From Ulota crispa (Eukaryota; Streptophyta; Bryopsida; Orthotrichales; Orthotrichaceae), in contig OY987243.1 in the NCBI GenBank assembly GCA_963920765.1, forward strand, positions 23,121,419 through 23,185,418: 64,000 bases of DNA. The letters run 5' to 3'. Shown in pieces: positions 6,840-38,059 of this stretch. The notes under the pieces were generated by a model. That model made no database searches. It saw only the letters and a list, made by a program, of their open reading frames with translations, and was not told where the DNA came from. Made by a program: the position numbers and the translations under genes. The first letter of the stretch is position 1. Each line of letters begins with the position of its first letter.

Positions 6840-7235
6840 GGGACAGACTAGGGAGACACCCCTATAGCCCAACCTATTAAATTTGAGATTATTTTTTTGT
6901 CAAAATAAGAAATAAAATCAAAATAATATTTTAGGGCACACTTGCATCTGCAAGAGTTACAAACACAACAAATATGTCTCATTTGTCAAATATGTCTCAT
7001 TTGTCAAATATGTCTCATTTGTGACATGATCCAGAGTTAAACTTAAAAACAAAAGGAATGACTAGTTTTCACTCTTGACCATGTCACAAATGAGACATAT
7101 TTGTTATATATTTGTAATGCTTGGAGATGCAAATGTGCGCTAAAATATTATTCTGATTTTGTTTCTTATTTTAAGATAAGAATAAACTCAAATTTAATAG
7201 GTTCGGCTATAAGGGGTGTCTCCCTAGTCCGTCCC
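6840..7235. mobile_element. MITE with long inverted ends and an internal 18-bp triplet repeat
   Basis: The two halves are near mirror images over about 150 bp each; the ends are GGGACAGACTAGGGAGACAC and its complement with few mismatches. Near the centre the left arm carries three tandem copies of an 18-bp unit (AAATATGTCTCATTTGTC, about 6966-7020); the right arm has only one, so the repeat expanded after the arms formed. No clear target duplication is seen. Confidence 0.72.
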
Positions 7236-8516
7236 TAAAACAAAGCCTTGCTATGAATCTAACCTCCCCTATCCCAAGCCACATTACCACAAGTCACACC
7301 TTACATAACAATAACCCCTCATTCTTGGCGGATCTCAAAATACACAAGAAATGAGGGACCGTTTTATCTGCTTATGCAATGAGGGGTTAATTGTTATGTC
7401 TCACAACAAACCCCTAAAGCATAAAATTCATGAAAAACGTATATAAGGCCACAAAACCATAATCAATCCTTGGCTAAAACTTGCCAACAACGTCTCCCTC
7501 TCATTCAATCCCAACACATTGGTTTGGAACTAATGATCAAGCTTGAATATGCAACGAGACACAAAAGGGTTGAGCGACTCTACATTGCAACAAATACCAC
7601 CCAACAAAAAAACAATCGTGAACGGACAGCAAGAAACTCGTTATACAAAAAAAACACGCTTTTTAATGCAAGACACTGTCCATCATCACCAATGATCTAG
7701 CATTTTAGAGCAAGCAAAACCCCAGGGCTCATAACCGCCTCCAAACAAACACATTACCTAATAGAAGGTCCTGGTCAGGTGCTCCAATAAATATGCCTCC
7801 ATAAAGAGGTTAGGCAAGTCTATGCATGGACTACAGTACACAGACCGTCCACAACAATCCTCAACTGTACACGGTAATCCAAAATAGACATGATGAACCA
7901 CGCACTAGTCACTCCTTAGGCATCTAGCCTACATGCGGCACGTGTTTTCTTCTAAAGGTTCTCTATTCCTACAAAGATTCTTCACAAAAAAGCTAACAAA
8001 GACCAAGGTTACGAAGGACTCGATTTCAAAAATCGTTTCCAACCGTCGTTGCGCGAGACGGAATAAAACATGTTTCATACCAAATCCAACAATTAACTAA
8101 AATACTAAAAAGGCAGAAGATTTTACTAAGTGCTATCATAACAGCGAAACCATATGTCCAACAGGCGCAACAACATTCTCGCTACAAGTACATTGAGTAC
8201 GACTTATCAACATAACAGAAATCTCAGGTAGCTTCAGGTCGCAGATCGTCAAGATACACAACTTTGGTAACGTATCACTGCAAATGTGATGTACTAGACA
8301 ATGGTCCTCATTAGCACTAGATTTTGACTCATCCCATCCCTTCAAAACCTAACTCTGGCTAGATTGGGGTCTCCGCAGTGATTGGTGCCCTCCAGTAAGG
8401 AAAGAACCCTCACCCTCGACCTTAATCAAGAAAGCACATCTATCACTGAACACAAGTTTCTCAAAACCTGTTTGACAACAAGAAAAAATCCCCTAGATAA
8501 TTCAGACAACGCATTC
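7236..8516. other. No gene seen
   Basis: AT-rich interval between a MITE and the left OSCP arm. Short reading frames at 7470 and 8136 have no recognisable domain. The last part before 8517 keeps only weak, gapped similarity to the sequence beyond 18260, consistent with a diverged outer flank of the inverted duplication. Confidence 0.4.
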
Positions 8517-8532
8517 AGCTAGTCAAGAACAT

Positions 8533-8538
8533 TTTATT
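8533..8538 (-). terminator. Poly(A) signal of left OSCP gene
   Basis: AATAAA on the minus strand, 224 bases past the stop codon and 16 bases inside the outer edge of the duplicated arm. Confidence 0.55.
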
Positions 8539-8761
8539 GGCCCAAGACCTTAGGTTTGCAATTATTTACAATCCCTCTCATCCCACTTCGCAACCCACAT
8601 CATTTCCGGGTACTACTTACTCGGGTCTTGGTCAAGTTGAAGGTCGCCATTTCCCATTCGCAACTCGCGCTTCGCCGAGTTGTTGGAGTACACACCCCTC
8701 CCAATGCCACCGACGATCCGCTGCTCGCCTGCTCTCCCATTCTAGCACCCGCTTCATTCGC

Positions 8762-9457
8762 TCAGATGGCCTCCGCCAGCAGCTGCTCCATCTGCTTGAT
8801 CTGCGTGTCGATCGACAGATCGATGTGCTTGTCCTGGATGTCCACCACGATGCCCCCGATTATGCTCCTGTCCACCTTCTGCTCCACCTTCAGGCTCTGC
8901 CCCGCCTTCAGGTACCCCTTCAGCGCGCCCTTGATGTCCTCCAGCTCCGCCGGACTCAGCTCCAGCGCCGCCGTCACCAGCGCCTGCACCTCGCCGCGGT
9001 GCGCGTGCAGCAGCTCCGAGTAGCACCCGCAGATCCGCTGCAGCTGGTACAGCCGCCCGTTCTCCGCCAGCACCGCTAGAAAGTTCTTCGTCACGTCGCT
9101 GAACTTCGTCTCCTTGAAGATCTCCTCCACCGCCCGCATGCGCACGCTCTTCGACACCGACGGGTCCTTCAGGAAGTCCGCGAACGCCGGGTTCTCCGCC
9201 GCGGCCCCGACCACCTGCTGCAGCTCCGCGTCCACGGGATCCAACACGTTCCTGCGCACCGCCGTCACGTACAGCGCCGACGCGTACTTCCCAGCCACGC
9301 CGTACATCGGCAGCGGCACCTCCACGTACTCCGGCTCCGCCTCGGCCTTGCCCGAAGCGAACGTCCGCGCGCCCCGCACCGCAGGCCGCTCGCACGTCCC
9401 CGCCACGGCCCGCGCCACGGCCACGGACCTCCGCACCAGCTGCTGCGACCTCCACAT
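8762..9457 (-). CDS. ATP5: Mitochondrial ATP synthase OSCP (delta) subunit, left copy
   Basis: Peripheral-stalk subunit linking F1 to Fo in mitochondrial ATP synthase. A single 231-residue frame without introns. Residues 1 to about 33 are rich in Arg, Ala and Val without acids and look like a mitochondrial leader. The body has the OSCP/delta pattern: YASALYVTAVRR near 59-70, an all-helical N domain, then a C-terminal domain with VDRSIIGGIVVDIQDKHIDL before the end. Length is normal for the mature family plus leader. Codon third positions are nearly all G or C, unlike neighbouring genes, so several long overlapping frames appear that are only shadows. It is identical to the gene at 17320-18015, and the two 5' ends face each other across about 7.9 kb. 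Confidence 0.95.
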   Translation of the reverse strand: MWRSQQLVRRSVAVARAVAGTCERPAVRGARTFASGKAEAEPEYVEVPLPMYGVAGKYASALYVTAVRRNVLDPVDAELQQVVGAAAENPAFADFLKDPSVSKSVRMRAVEEIFKETKFSDVTKNFLAVLAENGRLYQLQRICGCYSELLHAHRGEVQALVTAALELSPAELEDIKGALKGYLKAGQSLKVEQKVDRSIIGGIVVDIQDKHIDLSIDTQIKQMEQLLAEAI

Positions 9458-9556
9458 TGCGCCTCGCCCGCTCCCGCGCCAATTCCAGTACCTGCCCGGC
9501 CTAGCTGCGCTCTGGGACGATGGCGGACGCTAGAACGACGAGAGCAGAGCAGCAAA

Positions 9557-9565
9557 CCCTAGAAA
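9557..9565 (-). promoter_or_regulatory. Telo-box-like motif upstream of left OSCP
   Basis: AAACCCTAG on the plus strand (CTAGGGTTT on the coding strand), about 100 bases before the start codon. Such motifs are common in 5' regions of plant housekeeping genes; function here is inferred. Confidence 0.4.
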
Positions 9566-9752
9566 CGGGACTCGTCGCTGAATTGCGCATCGCCAGGCGC
9601 GAGCACACGCGAGGACGAAGGCGAGCGAGAGAGACGATGGCAGACCGCGCGTGCAACGGCGCTTGGAATGGGCGCTTGGACTTTCTGGTGGGGCCAGCGG
9701 TCAGCGGCAGGGGATTTGAACGTGACTTTTGCTAATTAGCTCAAGTGGCTAA

Positions 9753-10240
9753 GAGCATCCTCAGTCTACCCCGGCATAAAGGCCGCTATATCAATCATGA
9801 TTTAACTCCCAAAAATTATATGATTTGAAGAGCATGAAAATTTTCATTCTAAAAGTGCAATAAAATTTTGGTTTAAACATTGCATGATTTAAATATATCA
9901 TTTCAAATGTTAGCTAACTTCTAAAAAATTTAGAGGCTTTTCCAAATCAAGCCTAAATAAGGAAATTTTAGTAGAGGGGTTGGTACATTTGCCATCCAAT
10001 TTATTAAAATTTCCTTATTTAGGCTTAATTTGGAGAGGCCTCTAAGTTTCTTGGAAGTTAGCTAGTATTTGATGTGATATATCTAAATCATGCAATGTCC
10101 AAACCAAAATTTGTATTACGTTTTTACAATGAAAATTTTCATGTCCTTCAAATCGTATAATTTTGTGTTATTATCTATTTGCTATTAATAGATGAGGATT
10201 GATATAGCGGCCTTTATGCCGGGGTGGACTGAAGATGCCC
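9753..10240. mobile_element. Tourist-like MITE (TAA target) at the inner edge of the left OSCP arm
   Basis: A 488-bp element with about 45-bp inverted ends. They begin GAGCATCCTCAGTCTACC at left, and GGGCATCTTCAGTCCACC when the right end is read inward. TAA flanks both sides. The ends and 3-bp target fit PIF/Harbinger-derived Tourist MITEs. The right OSCP arm has one TAA at the matching place and no insertion, so it preserves the empty site. No coding capacity. Confidence 0.85.
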
Positions 10241-10299
10241 TAAAAGCACTGCTAAACATGTATTCTTCTTTGAAATCACCACTTAGAAGTTTGACATTA

Positions 10300-10725
10300 G
10301 GGATAGTCACAACTTCACACAGAATGAAAAGAGAATGGAGATTGAGAAGTTGTGGAGAGAAAGGAGGAGCCCATAGGAGCTTGTTCTTCATGAAGATGTT
10401 GAGACACCTCCATTTGTGTAAATTGGAGAATGAGAACGGAGGATGGAGAATGGTTTTCTTAGAGGAAGGTAGCATAGTCAACCATTGGAGGAGCAGAAAT
10501 AGCTAGTGTGAAAAGCAATTCATAAGTGGGGAAAATGAGTAGACCATGGTTAGAAGTTTGCACGCTGATTCATTCTCCACTCCATTCTTCACCTCTGAAG
10601 GAGAAGAATGAGACGCTGAGAAGTTTCACACACTAATCATAATCAAAACTCTAGAAACCACTAGTGACGCGACACCACTACGTTTTCATTCTCCACATGA
10701 GTGCAAGAAATGCTGTGACTACCCC
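10300..10725. mobile_element. MITE, family G, copy 1 (TA target)
   Basis: 426 bp, ends GGGATAGTCACAAC and complement of GGGGTAGTCACAGC, with TA outside both ends. The interior matches family G copy 2 (36418-36845), including AATGAAAAGAGAATG and GAGAAGTTGTGGAGAGA. It sits 60 bp inside the MITE at 9753-10240 on its right side, not within it. Confidence 0.78.
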
Positions 10726-11889
10726 TACTGTTAATAGCCATGAAAATAAATGATTTTTTTGTTATTTTGGGTAGAAGCTTTGACGAGTGTAGCCCTAGTT
10801 TGTGACCCTAGTTAGCGGTTGCCATCGGGGATGAGGGTGGCATCAAATGTCACCAAGGCCTAAAATTGACTCCTGTATGGGGGTTGATGCTTTGGACGCT
10901 TGGGGAAAAAATGCCATTGCAAGGTGGGAATTTCAAAAAGTTAACAAAACCCTATCTATTTAAAAGACACCCAAAAAAGGAAACATAAAAAGAAGAAACA
11001 GGGAAATTTTAGTCTGTTCATTTTGCATGAAAAGACATCTAACAGATTAAAACACAAGTAAGGATAGCATAAAATTTCAAAGTTTCTGAACTTCAAATCT
11101 GAAGTTTTTGGTTGAAGTCACTTGAAGAAGTGTATAGTCTAATTTCTTAAGAGTTACGTTGAGGCATTTCCATTATATTTTGATACCTGAATTGCATATA
11201 CATAGTGTTTGAAAGTGCATTTTGCCAAATTTTGAAATACAATAACGTCTTTTCATTGTCATCCTAAGCAACTAATTTAAATTGACTTTAGTAAGGGGTT
11301 TCTAAGTTTGAGAAAATTTTGAATAATCCCAATGAGTCTATCTTTGTAAATCTGAAACTATATTCTTAAGAACATTGAAATTTTCTCAAGAGAACTAAAA
11401 TTTATATTGCGTAGGAAGTGGTGCAAAATATTGCTCTACGAGCTCCTTTGGACGAGAGGTTTGCGAAAGAACAAGAAACTGGAAAAAGAGAGTTTTGAAA
11501 CTATTCTGGTTTCCACAGTTCTTCAGATGTAAAAAGAGGCAATTTTTTTTATAGAAGTGATGCTTGAGTAAACATGTTAAGTAAAGAAATTAGCAAAAGT
11601 TCAAAATACCCTATTATAAACCAAGGTATTTTTTTTTTAGTATTTTACATGAACAGTAAAATGCAACTTGTCCTCTAAGGTGAGGATAATTTTTAGAGGG
11701 ACTGAAGTACATTTGCTAATATGGAATTTGCAAACTTGGAATCTAGCGTTTAAACGCAAGAAAAAAAAACCTAGTTATAAACACGGCATTGTTTTTTTTT
11801 GTAATTCTTGACATCCTGAACATTGTGTTAATTTACTTTGGATTTTCAGATTTTGGTAGACATCAAAAATGACATTGCAAATGCATTAA
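10726..11889. other. No gene seen
   Basis: AT-rich sequence between two small elements. No convincing reading frame, RNA gene or inverted repeat was found. Confidence 0.4.
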
Positions 11890-12251
11890 CCTTTGAACGT
11901 CAGATGGGTGGCCATGCCTGCCCTCTACAGTGTTTCTACAATGGTGTGGCAGGTGCCACCCTTTAAAATATTGTTTCTTAAAGTTGCAAAAGTCAATAGT
12001 GCATGGTGCCCTCATGAAAAGTGCAAGATAGGCAGCTTGGGACTTAACATTGTGCTTCTGAATCATATCACAATTTGGGTTACCTAAAAACATGAATGCA
12101 TCTCATGAGGTAATTTTTGGCCTTCCATGATGGACCATGTGTTTATGGCCACTTCTGAAAAAAAAATCAAATGGAAAACGACTTTTTTGTGAATCATAGA
12201 ATCATTTTCTAGAGCCAAAGGACGTTTTTTGTCCTCCTCGACGTTCAAGGG
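11890..12251. mobile_element. TTAA-target element, family B, copy 1
   Basis: 362 bp flanked by TTAA on both sides. The left end CCTTTGAACGTC pairs with GACGTTCAAGGG at right. The interior matches the two halves of family B copy 2 at 19195-20189, which is split by another insertion. The ends differ from the main A family but the TTAA target is the same. The short open frames inside are chance. Confidence 0.75.
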
Positions 12252-12289
12252 TTAAATCAATTCTTAGCATGTTTTGCAATAAGAGTCCC

Positions 12290-13010
12290 TCATAAACTTG
12301 TGCTCAAAGGTCCAAAAAACAATAGAAAGTCAGTTGAATTAAACTGCAAATAAAAGAGGTGAATATATGAATTCACCAATACGTATTCCGACCAAAATTT
12401 CAAAAATATCTGATTGTTACATAAGTACAATACGTAGACAATATCCAGTTACATTCACTCCAGAAATTGGTTAACCCATGAGAGCCCAGCTCAAATTTGT
12501 GTCATGTTGGACCTCATTGCAAACAATTTGGCACCGCAAGTTCAAAAACAATATCTGAAAGAGTTAGCTTTTGATATTGCACAAGGCTTTGGATACGCAG
12601 ATGTAGGAAAAATTTGGTAAGTTTTCATTGCACGGATCAAAAGATTATTACAATCAAAAACAACAAATTGCTAAATATTGAGAAGCCATATTTTGGTCCC
12701 TGGGGCGCTCAAGGATTATCTGCTGAACGTCACAAAAGCCCTTTGCGACCATATGTATGACCGTATGTACAGATGTATTTGAGCTCCTTTGAGAGCTTTC
12801 CAAATTTTTTTATGCACCCACCATCATACAACCCTTCAATATGTATGATTGTAACACTCGATTTCCAACTATCCAAACTTCTGAATATTGAATGCGACCG
12901 TATTTGGTACCGTAGCTCCAGAACCGAAGGGCCCTTCAGGGGTTAAAAATGAGTAATGCCGGATTTTGCCAGTGAAGCTCAAAATCTCCCCAGACGGTAC
13001 TCGGAAAGGG
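12290..13010. repeat. A1-like remnant interrupted by element A2
   Basis: 12290-12470 and 12947-13010 match consecutive parts of A1 (about 4805-5040), for example CAATAGAAAGTCAGTTGAAT against AATAGAAAGTCAATTGAAT, and the shared AGCTCAAAATCTCCCC. Between them sits A2 at a TTAA. The outer ends of the remnant could not be fixed. Confidence 0.6.
12475..12942. mobile_element. TTAA-family element A2, nested in an A1-like remnant
   Basis: 468 bp with TTAA on both sides; left end CCCATGAGAGCCCAG, right end GGGCCCTTCAGGGG. The surrounding A1-like sequence resumes across the insertion, so A2 is the younger element. No coding capacity is visible. Confidence 0.75.
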
Positions 13011-14178
13011 AATCAGCCCTAAGGACGCTTGCTTTTGGGACACCCTCGCCTTAACCCTTTTTGGAGACGACTCTTTTGTCCCGCCAGTAAGCAGCAAAGC
13101 TCAGATGATTTCCTAGTGCAATCGCTACTACCGGTATGGACAGTGACGCAGGGTTTTGCGGAATCTTATTTCACAATTTGAGATTAGGATTTGATCGAGT
13201 ATAGAGTTTGATTGCGAAGTTATGCAAGGTTTGCATCGTGGAACTTTGAATTGAATGGAGGACGAGAAGCGGAGAATCCCTGTATGCATTAATAGGACCA
13301 TGTATCCTGCACGAGGAATTGGTTGCGGGCTTGAAAGTTACGCATCCACATAATTAATTTTTCAGTTTTCGTCACTGCTGTTACGGAGCACCAGCTGCGG
13401 CCTCCGTCGAGGTGCTTTTTAGAGCACGCTATTGTTGCAATGGCAGGTTGAAAGCCGACGATTCTAATAGCGCTGGGATTAAGCTTACTGCCCCTAGAGA
13501 GGAGTCGCAGAGTTGTTTAGGACTTTCATTTCGTTGAAGATGATGAGTTGGAGAAAGTTCGATTCCTATTTTCTCGACTCTCAAGTAAGTGACTTTTAAT
13601 CCGCTGCTGATGTTATGAGCAGATTTTCCTGAATTTTCTGATTGAGGTAGATATGATTCAGATGCGAGTGACGAGCAATGTCTTTACACAAGCTCAAGAG
13701 CTGATTTTGAACCTTGGCTCTAATCTTCATTGTATGCGCTTTATGGTGACTTGAACCGAGGGTTTGGCTATGGCATTGTTGATTTCGTCACTCTCGAAAC
13801 TGAGTTCTCTCGTGAGTTTGAAATAGCAGTGCTCTGATTATGCACTATAGTCCTTTTGTTTCTTGGAGGAAGCGTTGCGCAGTTTTATAGGCTAGAGATC
13901 AGGTGACTGTGAGCGATGTGCTACCTTGGAATGTTGCAGCGTTTGGATTTTCCTACAAAATTTGAAGTTGTTCTTTACCTCTCCTTACTGTGAAACCTGG
14001 TTTCTTGTTGCGTACCTTTCGAACTGAACGGCTGTTTTTTATGTTTTTGTTTGTTAGGGTTTAAAACAATATACCGGCAACGTTTCGTCTTGTGCCGATC
14101 ACTGGATGTTAGCCTTGGAGAGATTGAAACACTAGTAGATTTTGTTCCAGGTGACGATTTGCCACCAACAACCGAAAC
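13011..14178. other. 5' flank of the small coiled-coil gene; possible upstream exon
   Basis: Less AT-rich than its surroundings. At 13540-13584 there is a short frame reading MMSWRKFDSYFLDSQ followed by a good donor (GTAAGT), which could be a leader exon of the next gene or of a separate gene. I could not trace a supported continuation. Confidence 0.3.
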
Positions 14179-15021
14179 ATGATTTTCAAATTTGCGTTCG
14201 CGAGCCGGGTGCGAGAAATCGTGCGTGTGCTGCGAGGCCTTTCACCTGACGAGGCAGTGCGTGAGCGCACTCTTGCAATCAATGAACAACTTGCCCGAGT
14301 ATGATCCGTCCTTTTATTCATAAGAATGCTGTACCTTTCTCTTGCGGAAACTGGTTTACCTTTCCTCAGCAAAATTAGCCTCGTTTTTGGTGTTGCAGTA
14401 TTCACGAAACATGTATTACGGATGCTGTCGTACACCTAGGGATAAAACTAAAACGGAAAAATGAGTATTTGTACTTTCTCATTGGCTTTTTGGAAATTTG
14501 ACGCTGACATATTAAATTGTGAAGCTTCGAGCGACCAGGATAGCGCAGGAGAAACAGCGTGAGGAAGCAGCTTTGAGAGAGGTTCAGTTTGTGATTGAAG
14601 AGATGGAACGGTTGAAGGAGAGCTTGAGTGCTGCGGTATTTTCTCTTCTGTATTTTCTATGAATTCTTCTTATAATCAGAGTACTTACGAACAGTTGAAG
14701 GATTTCTAGCTTCAGCTTTAGAGCATAGAATCTTTCAATTTACTGCCCATTTATCACTTCGGTTTTGCAACGTTGCAGGAGGAAGCTGCTGTTGAGTTTG
14801 TAAACCAGATAAGTGATGATGCACAAGCCCAACTAGAGGATGAGTGGGAGAAGAAAGCAGAAACGTTGATGGCAGAAATGACTGCAGCAGGAAAACCAAC
14901 GGCCTCCAGTGTTGATTTGCCCGTGGCATCGCCTCCCCAGGAGGCCTCGCAGGAACCTTTGGCGGTCTCTAAAAGCAGAAACACCGTTGTTGAAACTAGG
15001 GTTGTAGTTCCGAAAAGCTAG
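14179..15021 (+). CDS. Small charged coiled-coil protein, unidentified, three exons
   Basis: Not recognised. Exons 14179-14298, 14525-14635, 14779-15021 join in phase with GT-AG introns to give 157 residues. The N-terminal 20 residues are basic and hydrophobic (MIFKFAFASRVREIVRVLRG). Residues about 25-77 are rich in Arg, Glu, Gln and Leu and should form a coiled coil (EKQREEAALREV, EEMERLKESL). The C-terminal third becomes Pro/Ser/Thr-rich. An alternative splice from about 14961 to 15038 would stay in frame and replace the end with QTRRMAEYLRKLFEEQFL, ending at a GTAAGT donor at 15104-15105. It lies alone between the OSCP arms. The regular phasing makes a real gene likely; function is unknown. 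Confidence 0.55.
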
Positions 15022-16363
15022 TCAGCTTCTTACACAGATTCAAACACGGCGTATGGCGGAATATCTTCGTAAGCTCTTTGAAGAACAATTTCTGGATGTT
15101 AGGGTAAGTTAACATCCGTGCCAAGGGCGAACCTTTTATCAATAGATTATTCATGTGCCGTTTCCTGGAGAAAGGTTTTGTTTTTATCATTGATGAAGGT
15201 CACGTATAGGATTGAGCGACATTACACTGGAATTACCATATACTGGGCGTCACAGATTCACAAGAGTTCAGGCCAAGGGTTCTTTTTCAAAAATATTGTG
15301 AGTTCGTTTCTCTGCATTCATGTACCCCATAGCATATGGTGATTTTAGTGGTAGTAGATTCTTGCCAGCGCGTGGATCAACTGCTATCTTCTTTTTTTAA
15401 ATGTATCATTTTTTTCTTGCGTACTTCGTTGTACATTGATAGTGTTGAATTTTGTGCAATTTTATTTTTGATTGAGTAGGGACATAGTGAGAATGAAGGA
15501 ATATTTGAAGTAAGTTTCTATGAACAATTCAAAATGTACAATTTCAAAGTGAAACGACAAATAAAGCCTGAGCAGGATATCTCCAGTAAATTATGAGCAG
15601 GAAATTAGGAAAATTACTATATTCCTCCCTTCCAGATGGAAGTTATAGTAGATATGATATGTATTTAGAATGTAATCACTCGTCCTACAAAGAAATTTAT
15701 TGACTTACGTATGAGCATCCAGAAGGGCGTTGTTTTATGTCACTCAAACTGATATTGTTTTTTGCCTTCTTTTTCTTCAACATTGTTTTCAACAACATAT
15801 GTAAACCAGTGGGATGTCACAAAATTCACAACATTTTTACATGTTAGAATGTAAGGGAGTGTTGGAAATCATGTCAAAAAGAGTGTTTGTAACAACTCCA
15901 CCCCTCCAACTAACATGTAGGGTGTTCAAATCCTACACGTAGGCACTTGCCCAACCTAAATGGGTTAGTCTTAAAAACATTTAGATTTAGTTGGCACAAA
16001 CTTTCAGTCATTTTCATTCTATGTTTTTGATAGTTCTTTGAACAAGATCATTTATCTGCGTTTTTAAACAACTTTTCAAACATTATTCAACTCTATTTCA
16101 CAAATATTGTTACTCTTTTATACAAGATTTTTTATACTTTTCTTAGCACTCTTTTTATCATCTTATTTATGTTTTATCAACTCTATATTTGGCATACTTG
16201 ATTTGACATTCTTAATACTCTTCTAATTATCAAAGCATGAGAAATTAGTAGGGTGTGTAACATTTTCTTAACACTTTAGTATCAATATGGACAAAAAATG
16301 TGTTGAGTATTTTAGCATTGTTTAGAAGTTCTACAATATATTTAAAAAACTAAATTCAATGTC
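15022..16363. other. Possible 3' exons of the small gene, then AT-rich spacer
   Basis: 15038-15103 can be read as an exon (MAEYLRKLFEEQF). Open stretches at about 15200-15300 and 15481-15597 (GHSENEGIFEVSFYEQFKMY) could be further exons but I cannot support their joins. From 15600 on the sequence is very AT-rich and I see no gene. Confidence 0.3.
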
Positions 16364-16483
16364 CTAAGGGTATACTTGGTCTTAAGAGGGGTAGTAGCAA
16401 AGGAAAATTAGATGCATTTGAACATACCTTTAGATTGCATTTATATTGTTGATACCCCTCCTAACATCAAGTGTGAACCTACC
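16364..16483. repeat. Short F-family foldback derivative
   Basis: Resembles the two ends of the large foldback at 33703-34712 brought together: AAGAGGGGTAGTAGC at left and GATACCCCTCCTAACATCAA at right, with AACATACCTTTAGA between, as in the larger copy. The middle is missing, so this is a deletion derivative. Element A3 sits directly next to it. Confidence 0.55.
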
Positions 16484-16487
16484 TTAA

Positions 16488-16713
16488 CCCTTAAACAACG
16501 AGAGGGCATCGTATATGCATTGCCGTATAATGGGCATTTGCTACCAACAAAAGGTTGTAATTTGGGGTCTCAAATAGCTAACTATGACCGCATGCATCTA
16601 TTCTCCAACTTCTTTGTTGATCTCAAACGTAATAAAGGTGTGGATGCACTCCAAATACAAAAAAAATACATTGTATTGTACTGGTCGCAAAGGGCTACCT
16701 CGTCCTTTAGGGG
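16488..16713. mobile_element. TTAA-family element A3, 226 bp
   Basis: Left end CCCTTAAACAACGAG, right end CTCGTCCTTTAGGGG, TTAA on both sides. It has the same length and the same interior as A4 (22245-22470), for example TCCAACTTCTTTGTTGATCT. No coding capacity; the local open frames are chance. Confidence 0.8.
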
Positions 16714-17214
16714 TTAATTCACTTCAGAAAACAAGACGTCAATTATTTTCCAACTTTCTACCCTTTTGGGTTGGTCATAAATTTCATGATCCACAAGTTA
16801 ATCGTCCACATAGATTTGTATTCTATACATGTGTGAAAACGTCTAAACAATAAAAACCAAGCCTAAATTCTTCACTTGTTTGAAAGGTGGAGACTGTGTG
16901 AATCCATTGATTGTATACCACAAGGACCTCATAAAAGATTTCCACCATTTTTTCAAGTGAACAAATTCCAAAGAAGGCCCCAAGGCTGAGATAAGCTTAT
17001 GCCAATACACGTTTAGCGGAGTTTTTAGCCACTTGAGCTAATTAGCAAAAGTCACGTTCAAATCCCCTGCCGCTGACCGCTGGCCCCACCAGAAAGTCCA
17101 AGCGCCCATTCCAAGCGCCGTTGCACGCGCGGTCTGCCATCGTCTCTCTCGCTCGCCTTCGTCCTCGCGTGTGCTCGCGCCTGGCGATGCGCAATTCAGC
17201 GACGAGTCCCGTTT

Positions 17215-17223
17215 CTAGGGTTT
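17215..17223 (+). promoter_or_regulatory. Telo-box-like motif upstream of right OSCP
   Basis: CTAGGGTTT about 100 bases before the start codon; the same site is present in the left arm. Confidence 0.4.
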
Positions 17224-17319
17224 GCTGCTCTGCTCTCGTCGTTCTAGCGTCCGCCATCGTCCCAGAGCGCAGCTAGGCCGGGCAGGTACTGGAATTGGCG
17301 CGGGAGCGGGCGAGGCGCA

Positions 17320-18015
17320 ATGTGGAGGTCGCAGCAGCTGGTGCGGAGGTCCGTGGCCGTGGCGCGGGCCGTGGCGGGGACGTGCGAGCGGCCTGCGGTG
17401 CGGGGCGCGCGGACGTTCGCTTCGGGCAAGGCCGAGGCGGAGCCGGAGTACGTGGAGGTGCCGCTGCCGATGTACGGCGTGGCTGGGAAGTACGCGTCGG
17501 CGCTGTACGTGACGGCGGTGCGCAGGAACGTGTTGGATCCCGTGGACGCGGAGCTGCAGCAGGTGGTCGGGGCCGCGGCGGAGAACCCGGCGTTCGCGGA
17601 CTTCCTGAAGGACCCGTCGGTGTCGAAGAGCGTGCGCATGCGGGCGGTGGAGGAGATCTTCAAGGAGACGAAGTTCAGCGACGTGACGAAGAACTTTCTA
17701 GCGGTGCTGGCGGAGAACGGGCGGCTGTACCAGCTGCAGCGGATCTGCGGGTGCTACTCGGAGCTGCTGCACGCGCACCGCGGCGAGGTGCAGGCGCTGG
17801 TGACGGCGGCGCTGGAGCTGAGTCCGGCGGAGCTGGAGGACATCAAGGGCGCGCTGAAGGGGTACCTGAAGGCGGGGCAGAGCCTGAAGGTGGAGCAGAA
17901 GGTGGACAGGAGCATAATCGGGGGCATCGTGGTGGACATCCAGGACAAGCACATCGATCTGTCGATCGACACGCAGATCAAGCAGATGGAGCAGCTGCTG
18001 GCGGAGGCCATCTGA
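17320..18015 (+). CDS. ATP5: Mitochondrial ATP synthase OSCP (delta) subunit, right copy
   Basis: Identical in sequence to the left copy at 8762-9457: 231 residues, intronless, N-terminal Arg-rich mitochondrial leader, OSCP signature in the C-terminal domain. The start is the ATG following GGGCGAGGCGCA and gives the expected leader; longer frames over the same bases in other phases lack any domain and arise from the high GC content. Both copies look functional, so the locus would encode the same stalk subunit twice. Whether both are transcribed cannot be told from sequence, because the identical tract also covers about 295 bases upstream of each start. Confidence 0.95.
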   Translation: MWRSQQLVRRSVAVARAVAGTCERPAVRGARTFASGKAEAEPEYVEVPLPMYGVAGKYASALYVTAVRRNVLDPVDAELQQVVGAAAENPAFADFLKDPSVSKSVRMRAVEEIFKETKFSDVTKNFLAVLAENGRLYQLQRICGCYSELLHAHRGEVQALVTAALELSPAELEDIKGALKGYLKAGQSLKVEQKVDRSIIGGIVVDIQDKHIDLSIDTQIKQMEQLLAEAI

Positions 18016-18238
18016 GCGAATGAAGCGGGTGCTAGAATGGGAGAGCAGGCGAGCAGCGGATCGTCGGTGGCATTGGGAGGGGTGTGTACTCCAACAACTC
18101 GGCGAAGCGCGAGTTGCGAATGGGAAATGGCGACCTTCAACTTGACCAAGACCCGAGTAAGTAGTACCCGGAAATGATGTGGGTTGCGAAGTGGGATGAG
18201 AGGGATTGTAAATAATTGCAAACCTAAGGTCTTGGGCC

Positions 18239-18244
18239 AATAAA
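18239..18244 (+). terminator. Poly(A) signal of right OSCP gene
   Basis: AATAAA 224 bases past the stop codon and 16 bases inside the end of the identical arm. Confidence 0.55.
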
Positions 18245-18260
18245 ATGTTCTTGACTAGCT

Positions 18261-19194
18261 TCATCCTTCTTATGCGTCGTCCCTCATAATCGAAGGTTTT
18301 AGTGGCTATGAGCAGCACGCAGTCTTCGGAGCTCCTTTAGTTCATAGAGAATCATCACTCTAGTCTAGATTGTTGCAGAATGAACTGGACAAGTCGAATG
18401 GGAACTTGGTTGTGTTGGTTTTCTCCTGCGCAGCATGATGGTGCTTTATTTGCAACCCTCTATCTAGAAGATAAGACTGTCTGAGGACCTGAGGGGAGTC
18501 GGAAGCGAATTGTTCCGGTGAATTGATTTTTGGTCTAGGCTGATTTACTTAGCCTGCTTCGTAGCTAGCAATCCTTATAGAAGTTGGGAGTGCAAGAAAT
18601 GCCCTCGCATCCAAAGTACATTTGAAAGGCAAGTATCGGACATGTCTGAATTGTAGTGCGCTTTCAGAATTGGAGACAGAGTAACCTGCACTCCAAGTTT
18701 CTTGACTCATCCGGTTGGTGCAACTTAATTGCTGATGAGAATAGTCAGAAGTGTCATGGGAATTGTATCGCTAACTTGTTCGAGTTCTTGAGCAATTTGT
18801 AAGTTTTCTGGCAATGTATCGATAAGTGCGAAAGCATATTGAAATTTGTCTTGCAAGATCGTTACGGAAGGGCCTAGCTAGAGCAATGTCCACGATCTTT
18901 GGAAAGTGCAAAGAACCTCCTGGTTGAGAATTTGACATTCTTTAGCAATATCTTGCAGTTTGAAGAAGACGTGTTAAGATTGAAACATACATTGAATGTA
19001 GGACTGTTTGGTAACATAGAGCCCTTGTTGTAACTGCCGAACCCCTCCCTTAGAGCAAGGCAGTCATTCATGACGTCATTGGTTATATGGAAATTCAGGC
19101 TTACTCTTGGAATAATGGTATTAAAATTTACTAGATTAGAAGTTCTAATCTTGCTGCCCCTGAATATGACAATGTTGCACATTCTTAACTCTAA
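18261..19194. other. No gene seen
   Basis: Flank outside the right OSCP arm. Only weak gapped similarity to the sequence left of 8517. The minus-strand frame at 18874-19182 has no recognisable domain. Confidence 0.4.
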
Positions 19195-20842: not shown

Positions 20843-21230
20843 AATATCCTTGATTCCACCCTTACTTGTCACTGTTGCATTGCTATTTGTTGAGCAATTT
20901 GTGACTTGTTGTTTGTTACATGGTCACCTTGTCAAGTTACATACATTCTTGTCATTTAGTGTAAGTGAATCTCGTCAAGTTGCAATGTTATTTGTCGCGT
21001 TATAGAGCAATTTCTCTCTGCTTCTCTTTGGACACCCGCAAGCTGTGAAAGCCCATTTCTTTGTGCTTGCATAGTGACAAATAACATTGCAACTCGATGA
21101 GATTCACTAACACTGGACGACGAGAGTGTATGTAACTTGACAAGGTGACAATGTAACAAACGACGAGTCAGAAATTGCTCAACGAATAGCAATGCAACAA
21201 TGACGAGTAAGGGTGGAATCAAGGATATTG
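20843..21230. repeat. Inverted repeat, about 155-bp arms
   Basis: Arms about 20843-20996 and 21075-21230 with a spacer near 80 bp. Because the arms are mirror copies, both strands show almost the same short frame (SLIPPLLV.VALLFVEQF), which is a sign of the repeat and not of two genes. Confidence 0.7.
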
Positions 21231-33702: not shown

Positions 33703-34712
33703 ATAAGCTTATGGTACATTCACACTTGATGTTAAGAGTGGAGGTAGCTAAAGAAAAATCGATGTATTTAAATATACCTTTAGAGTACAATTGGGTCCAT
33801 TAATCTTACAAATTGTATTTTTGGGTCATTCAGATTTTTTAATGAAACGTAGAGTACAATTGGTGTATTTTTGACCAAAAATTTATCATTGCATCCTCAC
33901 GTAATCCCAATCAAGCATACCAAATATCAAACTCAGAAAAGCAAAATTTCATTTGTGGTGAAATTTTAAAGCAAAATTTGATGGTTTGACATGGTATTTT
34001 ATTAAAAACAATTGGTGATAAATTTTTGAGATTTGATTTCATGAGTATGAAGGAAACATCCATATGTGCATCTTCCATGCTAAAAAAATGCCCCCTCAAG
34101 TAACAAAAATTTGATCAATAAAAGGTTTAGTGAAACTTGTGATAGGCCCAAATCTTGAATTTTTATTTTATTTTATGAAAATCAAAATTTGTTGTTTGAC
34201 TCAAATAATGTGATTTACTTTGTATCTTTGAACATGATATCTTGTTTACTTGATGAGAAGCTAGTTTAAAAATAAAGATATGTATTTACAAGATTTGGGC
34301 CTATCACAAGTTTCATTGAATATTTTATTGATCAAATTTTTGTTGTTGAAGGGGGTATTTTTTTAGCATGGAAGATGTGCATATGGATGTTTCCTTCATA
34401 CTCATGAAATCAAATCTCAAAAATTTATCACCAACTGTTTTTAATAAAATACCATGTCAAACCATCAAATTTTGCTTTAAAATTTCAGCACAAATGTAGT
34501 TTTGCTTTTTTGAAATTGATATTTAGTATGCTTGATTAGAATTACGTGAGAATACAATGATAAACTTTTGGTCAAAAATACACCAATTGTACTCCATGTT
34601 TCATTAAAAAATCTGAATGACCCAAAAATACAGGTTGTAAGATTAATGGACCCGACTATACATTCATATTGCTAATACCCCTCTTAACACCAAGTGTAAA
34701 CATACTCTTAGT
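33703..34712. repeat. F-family foldback F1, about 1 kb
   Basis: Two inverted arms of about 430 bp around a spacer near 34140-34310. Matching phrases include ATTTTTGGGTCATTCAGA with its complement, and the terminal CACTTGATGTTAAGAG with CTCTTAACACCAAGTG. The arms have diverged by roughly a tenth or more near the ends and less inside. No coding capacity. Confidence 0.75.
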
Positions 34713-37185: not shown

Positions 37186-38059
37186 GTACACTACCCTTGC
37201 TTATCTTTACGCCTAGCCCATTCTACCATTCCAAAAACTTAGCATTTTACACAATACAATTGGCAACTTTGTATTTTGAATCATTGGCCTATAATACTTA
37301 TACAATCCTAATCAAGCACACTAAACTTTGAGTTCCAAAAATCAAAATTTTATTTTTGGTGAATTATTTTAAATAAAATTCATGGTTTTACTTGACAATT
37401 GACTAAAAAAACATTGGTGATGAATTTTTGAGATTTGATAGCATGGGTATGTAGGAATCATCCGTACACACATCTTTCCTTTGAACAAAAATTTTCAAAA
37501 AGTTTCAAAATTCCTTCTATAGATATTTTAGTGTTAGGCCCATCATGACCAAATTTAGTAAAGTAGATATCTCCATTTTTTAATTAGATTTTAAAATTTG
37601 ACTCATACATTGTGGTTAAGTTTTCACCTTTGAGCAGAGCAATATGTTTATTTTGCCAAAATCCAATTAAAGATTGGAGATATCTATTTTACTAAATTTG
37701 GTCATGATGGGCCTAACACTAAAATCTCTATAGAAGAAATTTTGAAACTTTTTGAAGATTTTTGTTTAAAGGAAAGATGTGTGTATGGATGATTCCTATA
37801 TACCCATGAAAATAAATTTCAAAAATTCATCACCAATGTTTGTTAATCAATTGTCAAGTGAAACCATGAATTTTATTTAAAATAATTCACCAAAAATAAG
37901 ATTTTGATTTTTGGAACTCAGAATTTGGTATGCTTGATTAGGATTTTATAAGAATTATAGGCCAATGATACAAAATTGCCAATTGTATGTATTGTATAAA
38001 ATGCTAAGTTTTTGGAATGGTAAAATGGGCTAGTGTAAAGATATGCAAGGGTAGTGTAC
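37186..38059. repeat. F-family foldback F2, 874 bp with about 408-bp arms
   Basis: Arms 37186-37594 and 37659-38059 are inverted copies around a loop of about 65 bases; they begin GTACACTACCCTTGC. GTAC stands at both outer edges. The matching place in element A8 (58740) reads AATGTACTTGTGCAAG without insertion, so F2 went into a GTAC site of an A-family relative. One arm is also found alone at 5925-6250. Confidence 0.82.

Follow-up and report, generated by a model that had tools for sequence, protein, structure and literature searches.

A stretch of 64,000 nucleotides from the moss Ulota crispa (GenBank assembly GCA_963920765.1, contig OY987243.1), which corresponds to C2:23121419-23185418 in the contig numbering adopted here and is hereafter referred to as the window, harbors two whole genes for OSCP, a subunit of the peripheral stalk of the mitochondrial ATP synthase, each of them enclosed in one arm of an inverted repeat (Table 1). 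These two genes, and the process by which their sequences may have become identical, form the subject of the present analysis. The left arm is the exact reverse complement of the right arm, with 0 mismatches over 1236 bases (1236/1236) in a window devoid of N, and the original prediction that the arms are base-identical, untranslated regions (UTRs) included, was borne out by the 540 non-coding sites, which show no difference. These sites comprise 295 bp located 5' of the OSCP start codon and 245 bp located 3' of the coding sequence (CDS) in each arm; together with 125 fourfold degenerate sites, which are likewise free of differences, they amount to about 665 weakly constrained positions.

When compared with the protein chains of the PDB, the encoded OSCP protein scored 145 bits with the best mitochondrial OSCP and 60 bits with the best chloroplast delta subunit, a comparison that places the arm genes with the mitochondrial OSCP rather than with its chloroplast counterpart. 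A BLAST search of the arm against the assembly (274.8 Mb in 157 contigs, among which C2 measures 37 Mb) returned three matches, i.e., the two arms themselves (100%) and a site on contig C3 with 76% identity over 570 bases. No third copy of a quality expected from a donor was found in this genome search, the next DNA match being that 76% site. Retroposition of an mRNA was considered as a possible origin of the arms and was discarded, no poly(A) tract occurring 3' of either arm.

Table 1. Coordinates of the inverted OSCP pair and of the associated features in the window (position 1 is the first nucleotide of the window).
Feature	Position	Strand	Remarks
Left arm of the inverted repeat	8517..9752	+	1236 bp, reverse complement of 17025-18260
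Right arm of the inverted repeat	17025..18260	-	1236 bp
OSCP gene 1	8762..9457	-	231 aa, CDS without intron; Pfam PF00213, E 4.9e-46
OSCP gene 2	17320..18015	+	Identical to gene 1, head-to-head with gene 1
AATAAA poly(A)-signal-like hexamer, gene 1	8533..8538	-	16 nt inside the outer arm edge
AATAAA poly(A)-signal-like hexamer, gene 2	18239..18244	+	Mirror of the gene 1 hexamer
Spacer between the arms	9753..17024	.	7.3 kb, holds the MITE and dispersed-repeat fragments
Palindromic Tourist/PIF-Harbinger-like miniature inverted-repeat transposable element (MITE)	9753..10240	.	488 bp, borders the left arm on its inner side; missing next to the right arm
Target-site duplication TAA, left copy	9750..9752	+	Occupies the last 3 nt of the left arm
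Target-site duplication TAA, second copy	10241..10243	+	From the sequence and the nine-copy alignment
Diverged inner-flank remnant, left	10244..10264	+	17/21 bases match 17024-17004
Diverged inner flank, right (empty site of the MITE)	17004..17024	-	Counterpart of 10244-10264

Edges of the arms and age of the duplication

According to the original prediction, the similarity of the arms drops to about 80% (20 of 25 bases) immediately past the inner edge and persists weakly past the outer edge. The first part of this statement holds as far as the resemblance is concerned, since a match of 17/21 bases lies far above chance, but its position has to be amended: the similar sequence stands behind the MITE and becomes apparent when the latter and one TAA are skipped. 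Counting the identical CTAA that precedes it, the match reaches 21/25, which is presumably the source of the earlier figure. The anchored score of the flank following the MITE is 22, as compared to a maximum of 15 among 1493 random pairs, and at least 17 matches in 22 positions at any of 5 offsets were obtained in 3 random draws out of 400,000, the few that were located too close being skipped. With shuffled sequences, the score was equalled in 0 to 2 cases out of 200 over the first 60-100 bp, an effect that fades over longer stretches. Beyond the 21-bp match, a gap of 27 bp is followed by a further short and weak match, and nothing secure occurs farther on. The sequence of the MITE itself displays no similarity above chance to the right inner flank. 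Chance resemblance, which had been named in advance as a possible objection, does not account for the inner flank once aligned and randomized in this way.

The second part of the statement could not be upheld, for neither strict or loose local alignment nor anchored extension revealed homology above chance past the outer edge. The anchored score of the outer flanks is 0 in two scoring schemes, and that of the third scheme is matched by 368 of the 1493 random pairs. Over the first 60 bp, the strict score was attained by 21/200 shuffles and the loose score by 10/200, which is borderline, and more often so over longer stretches. In the genome search, the segments 7700-8516 and 18261-19190 each matched exclusively itself at the sensitivity of that search.

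The element that marks the inner edge belongs to a family dispersed in the genome, with 1909 candidates at first look, 40 of which were scored, and 82 matches when both strands are counted. Among the 40 scored copies, the closest relatives of the window element are 86% identical over the full length and up to 88% over part of it. An alignment of nine copies delineates the termini as GAGCATCC...GATGCCC, and target-site duplications of the TWA type are exact, as judged by eye, in six of these nine copies including that of the window. A 3-bp TWA duplication, terminal inverted repeats and dispersed copies, the hallmarks of a MITE, thus all occur in this family, which we take to belong to the Tourist/PIF-Harbinger class.

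Because the right flank corresponds to the empty site of the MITE, the duplication should be older than the insertion. The window MITE departs from the consensus of eight relatives at 32/484 sites (6.6%), and the eight relatives themselves depart from it by 5.4-9.0%; these eight were taken among the 10 best-scoring other copies, a choice which, if anything, biases the 6.6% downwards. Provided that this divergence was gained after insertion, the expected difference between the arms would amount to about 13% of the unconstrained sites. For an expected divergence of 13.2% (2 x 6.6%), the probability of finding no difference among 665 sites is around 1e-41, and the 95% upper bound of the actual divergence is 0.45%. 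The OSCP duplication is accordingly best described as probably old, as far as the empty site and the MITE allow it to be dated.

With respect to the surroundings of the arms, no Pfam match above cut-off was found in the spacer for the six open reading frames tried out of 12 listed (60 aa or longer), and neither Rfam, at the gathering threshold, nor ARAGORN gave any match across the window. The genes adjoining the OSCP pair resemble a methylene-tetrahydrofolate dehydrogenase gene and a phytoene-desaturase-like gene, the Pfam matches covering parts of them. Four other long self-complementary elements, with palindromes of 77-86%, occur in the window at 33785-34661, 37186-38059, 20843-21229 and 6840-7235, and are presumably foldback MITEs. 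The first of these sits within a repeat, another copy of which, at 16374-16486, is devoid of it.

Other gene pairs of the genome

The PF00213 domain was detected five times in the genome, in the C2 pair, at one site on C3 and in a pair on C10, so that four of the five OSCP/delta-domain genes belong to mirror pairs. The region C3:9637588-9656000 is a segmental relative of the window, comprising a folD-like gene, a cytochrome-b5-like gene and a single OSCP gene, and its gene content is consistent with an old duplication of the genome or of a segment. The spacer of the OSCP pair, when compared with 28.4 kb of C3 with a view to synteny and orientation, gave no match at the threshold used.

The pair on C10 (C10:5129096-5156760), which in all likelihood encodes the delta subunit of the chloroplast ATP synthase (AtpD), is inverted in a tail-to-tail arrangement with the two matches 27 kb apart. 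Its copies share 936 bp of exact identity, delimited upstream by a 7-bp indel and, at the stop codon, by an indel of about 59 bp. Beyond the latter, 477/548 aligned bases (87%) of the 3' flank are identical in the next six blocks of 100 columns. The AtpD pair is a clearer case of conversion than the OSCP pair.

The comparison was extended to the Lhc and RbcS families, making a total of 38 loci, namely 28 Lhc loci (of 30 fetched, from a total of 56 matches), 5/9 RbcS and 5/5 OSCP loci. Gaps are cheap in the resulting profiles, such that unrelated flanks display about 80% identity within the half of the columns that are aligned, and homology of the flanks is claimed only where BLAST also extends. 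An inverted Lhc pair on C6 (18420528 / 18453777) is identical in 1491/1500 columns and is bordered on one side by about 500 bp of homologous flank at approximately 75-80%. Similarly, an inverted Lhc pair on C7 (1386722 / 1485537) is identical in 1296/1300 columns, beyond which some 600 bp at about 78-83% are followed by 548 columns at 91%. An exact run of 628 bp occurs within the CDS of an inverted RbcS pair and one of 587 bp within that of a direct pair, and the homology of the RbcS pairs stops near the start and stop codons. Altogether, eight pairs located on the same contig are identical without interruption over 300 bp or more, five of them inverted and three direct, one pair of overlapping loci being dropped; these numbers are too few to claim a bias of orientation.

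Some additional arrangements were observed in these and other families. Four RbcS genes of mixed orientation, with differing flanks and exact runs of up to 628 bp, are clustered at C1:27491216-27560585. A direct Lhc pair (C1:168271 / 295396), 127 kb apart, is exactly identical over 1873 bp up to the end of the fetched locus, and possibly results from a larger segmental duplication or from a duplicate of the assembly. An inverted pair separated by 3.3 kb (C4:4761460 / 4764771) displays equal, weak scores with the Lhc-family profile. For tubulins, where scores only were compared, identical profile scores occur in an inverted pair (C1:5047417 / 5057851), in a trio of alternating orientation (C3:2894799, 2906027 and 2922586) and in a direct pair (C1:32264281 / 32277113). 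Finally, an LHCII protein of the genome gave its best scores among single-domain chains with the Physcomitrium patens entries 8htu and 7xqp (445 bits, as compared to 428 or less), as would be expected in a moss, and scores of 506 and 444 bits with the multi-domain chains of 9vfj.

Probable gene conversion and its alternatives

The identity of the arms would most likely result from gene conversion, recent and without crossover, between inverted OSCP paralogues of old origin, an interpretation to which we assign a probability of roughly 0.8. The conversion between members of an older inverted pair that was put forward in the original prediction is still the best explanation when the empty site, the 17/21 match, the 6.6% divergence of the MITE, the absence of any difference in 665 sites and the AtpD pair are considered together. 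A tract of complete identity is embedded in a pair that is otherwise diverged (1236/1236 against 17/21, on one side and over a short distance); the edges of the tract are abrupt, as they are in the C10, C6, C7 and RbcS pairs; identity extends to weakly selected sites; and the duplication would predate the tract, on the assumption that the MITE diverged after its insertion.

Under gene conversion, the locus could have evolved as follows. An ancient inverted duplication of the whole OSCP gene would have produced two copies lying head to head, after which their surroundings, spacer as well as flanks, would have drifted and gained transposons, among them the MITE beside the left copy. More recently, a break in one of the arms may have been repaired with the mirrored arm as a template, the latter being invaded within the same chromatid or on its sister (we infer both this route and its recency), and copying without crossover would have rendered at least 1236 bp identical. 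The inner end of the tract would correspond to the MITE, a heterology of 488 bp that a heteroduplex could hardly cross, and its outer end, some 16 nt beyond the poly(A)-signal-like hexamer, to the place where the resemblance of the flanks ceases. A crossover would merely invert the spacer, so that inverted pairs would survive.

Several points weigh against this interpretation. The outer flank is devoid of homology above chance, and the notion of an older pair has a narrow base, consisting of about 21 bp of diverged inner flank and a weak further match. The MITE may already have been diverged at the time of its insertion, which is the weak point of the dating. Since the C3 relative possesses a single OSCP gene, the inverted duplication may postdate the split between the two regions. 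All comparisons were confined to one genome. In the C10 stretch, the interval separating the genes includes 200 N. The inverted Lhc pair on C8 displays patches at 92-94% only and no long exact tract, and no local pair with equal scores was found among the cyclophilins, although the scores are similar in one inverted pair (C5). Not every local pair is homogenized, and the cyclophilin result weighs against a universal pattern.

Among the alternatives, a fresh inverted duplication of the 1236-bp segment alone, by template switching or break repair and with no conversion thereafter, fares best while being clearly unlikely. It would agree with the 0 differences in 1236 bases, with outer flanks of no more than chance resemblance and with the single OSCP gene of the related C3 region, but leaves to be explained both why the copy would end exactly at the target site of the MITE and why a 17/21 match follows the element. 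Copying of the MITE followed by its excision would yield an identical flank instead of a diverged one, and an imperfect microhomology at the junction, although possible, is by our own estimate unlikely at such a length. The other pairs of the genome in which near-identical cores are bordered by diverged homologous flanks also speak against it.

Overwriting from an RNA template, in which the cDNA of an OSCP mRNA would have recombined with both copies, is very improbable. The outer edge located 16 nt beyond AATAAA and the intronless CDS would fit such an event, and cDNA-mediated replacement has been considered as an explanation of intron loss in P. patens (PMC3729371). Yet the 5' extension of the arm, 295 bp ahead of the ATG, may exceed the transcript, the tract of the C10 pair stops at the stop codon, and the RbcS tracts overlap in-frame stops, presumably introns, which designates DNA as the template in that family. 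An artefact of assembly or polishing deserves still less credit: the arms are known from assembled sequence alone, and short-read polishing can smooth exact repeats, but each arm has distinct flanks, the window lies in a 37-Mb contig and is free of N, the duplication of a contig end would bring its own flanks along, and polishing would hardly remove a divergence of about 13%. Strong purifying selection on both copies of OSCP, an essential protein, is hardly conceivable in view of the 540 non-coding and 125 fourfold sites without difference and of the C3 paralogue, which retains 76% identity where its CDS can be aligned and has UTRs that BLAST could not align.

A broader form of the conversion hypothesis can be offered as a tentative and rather doubtful extension, in which neighboring, often inverted, paralogues would undergo a genome-wide and ongoing copy-correction, with tracts running until an indel is encountered. 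The inverted layout might persist as a crossover flips the spacer without deleting a copy, and palindromic MITEs at the edges might act either as stops or as the breaks from which conversion starts.

Comparison with known systems

Inverted paralogues are already known to undergo gene conversion, as are neighboring RbcS and Lhc genes of plants, in which the process has long been documented; the OSCP pair is a good new example of it. No prior account of this pair was found in the literature on moss conversion, inverted duplicates, OSCP, MITEs and RbcS, which was searched by these subjects rather than by species and included few subscription papers. The novelty resides in the OSCP example itself, in an edge bounded by a MITE, in the dating by means of an empty site and in the hint that the genome is rich in such pairs. 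The age of an ectopic conversion, the edges of its tract and the barrier it met would be legible in one and the same sequence. If the phenomenon were genome-wide, as a few sampled families hint, the divergence of neighboring duplicates would become unusable for dating duplications in this lineage. P. patens has been called unique among plants for its facile gene targeting by homologous recombination (PMC4990234). Owing to this facility, such plants would be suited to measure the effects of orientation and indels on copy-correction.

Identical inverted gene copies also occur in the PAI genes of Arabidopsis and in other loci subject to hairpin silencing. In contrast to the PAI inverted repeat, the OSCP genes point apart, so that a read-through hairpin is not expected, and this divergent orientation, along with the 7.3-kb spacer, would weigh against a double-stranded RNA running through both arms.

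Conversion from arm to arm takes place in the palindromes of the human Y chromosome, which have much longer arms and lie on a sex chromosome. In comparison, the OSCP arms are the size of a gene, and similar pairs are found on several contigs. The OSCP pair nevertheless resembles the sex-chromosome palindromes (PMC3403216, PMC7023750) in consisting of mirror copies that would be held identical by intrachromosomal conversion.

Highly similar tandem genes, for which conversion has been suggested, were reported from Physcomitrella in a passage of PMC3045890 citing Lang et al. 2008. Like the OSCP genes, they are neighboring moss genes of high similarity, from which the OSCP pair differs, as far as that passage goes, by tract edges located at base level, an inverted layout and a dated flank.

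A further counterpart is offered by the divergent and convergent pairs of paralogues of Caenorhabditis, which are often near-identical within a species, share their structure among up to three species and have been proposed to undergo gene conversion (Zhao et al. 2007, PMC1803023). As with OSCP, these are inverted paralogues with arms up to 100% identical, and in one of them the inverted structure is interrupted by an insertion of 153 nt, upon removal of which the arms are 81.6% identical (PMC1803023). Their age was deduced from orthologues in three species and the spacers described for them are short (PMC1803023), whereas the OSCP pair is dated by the empty site of a MITE and encloses a repeat-rich spacer of 7.3 kb.

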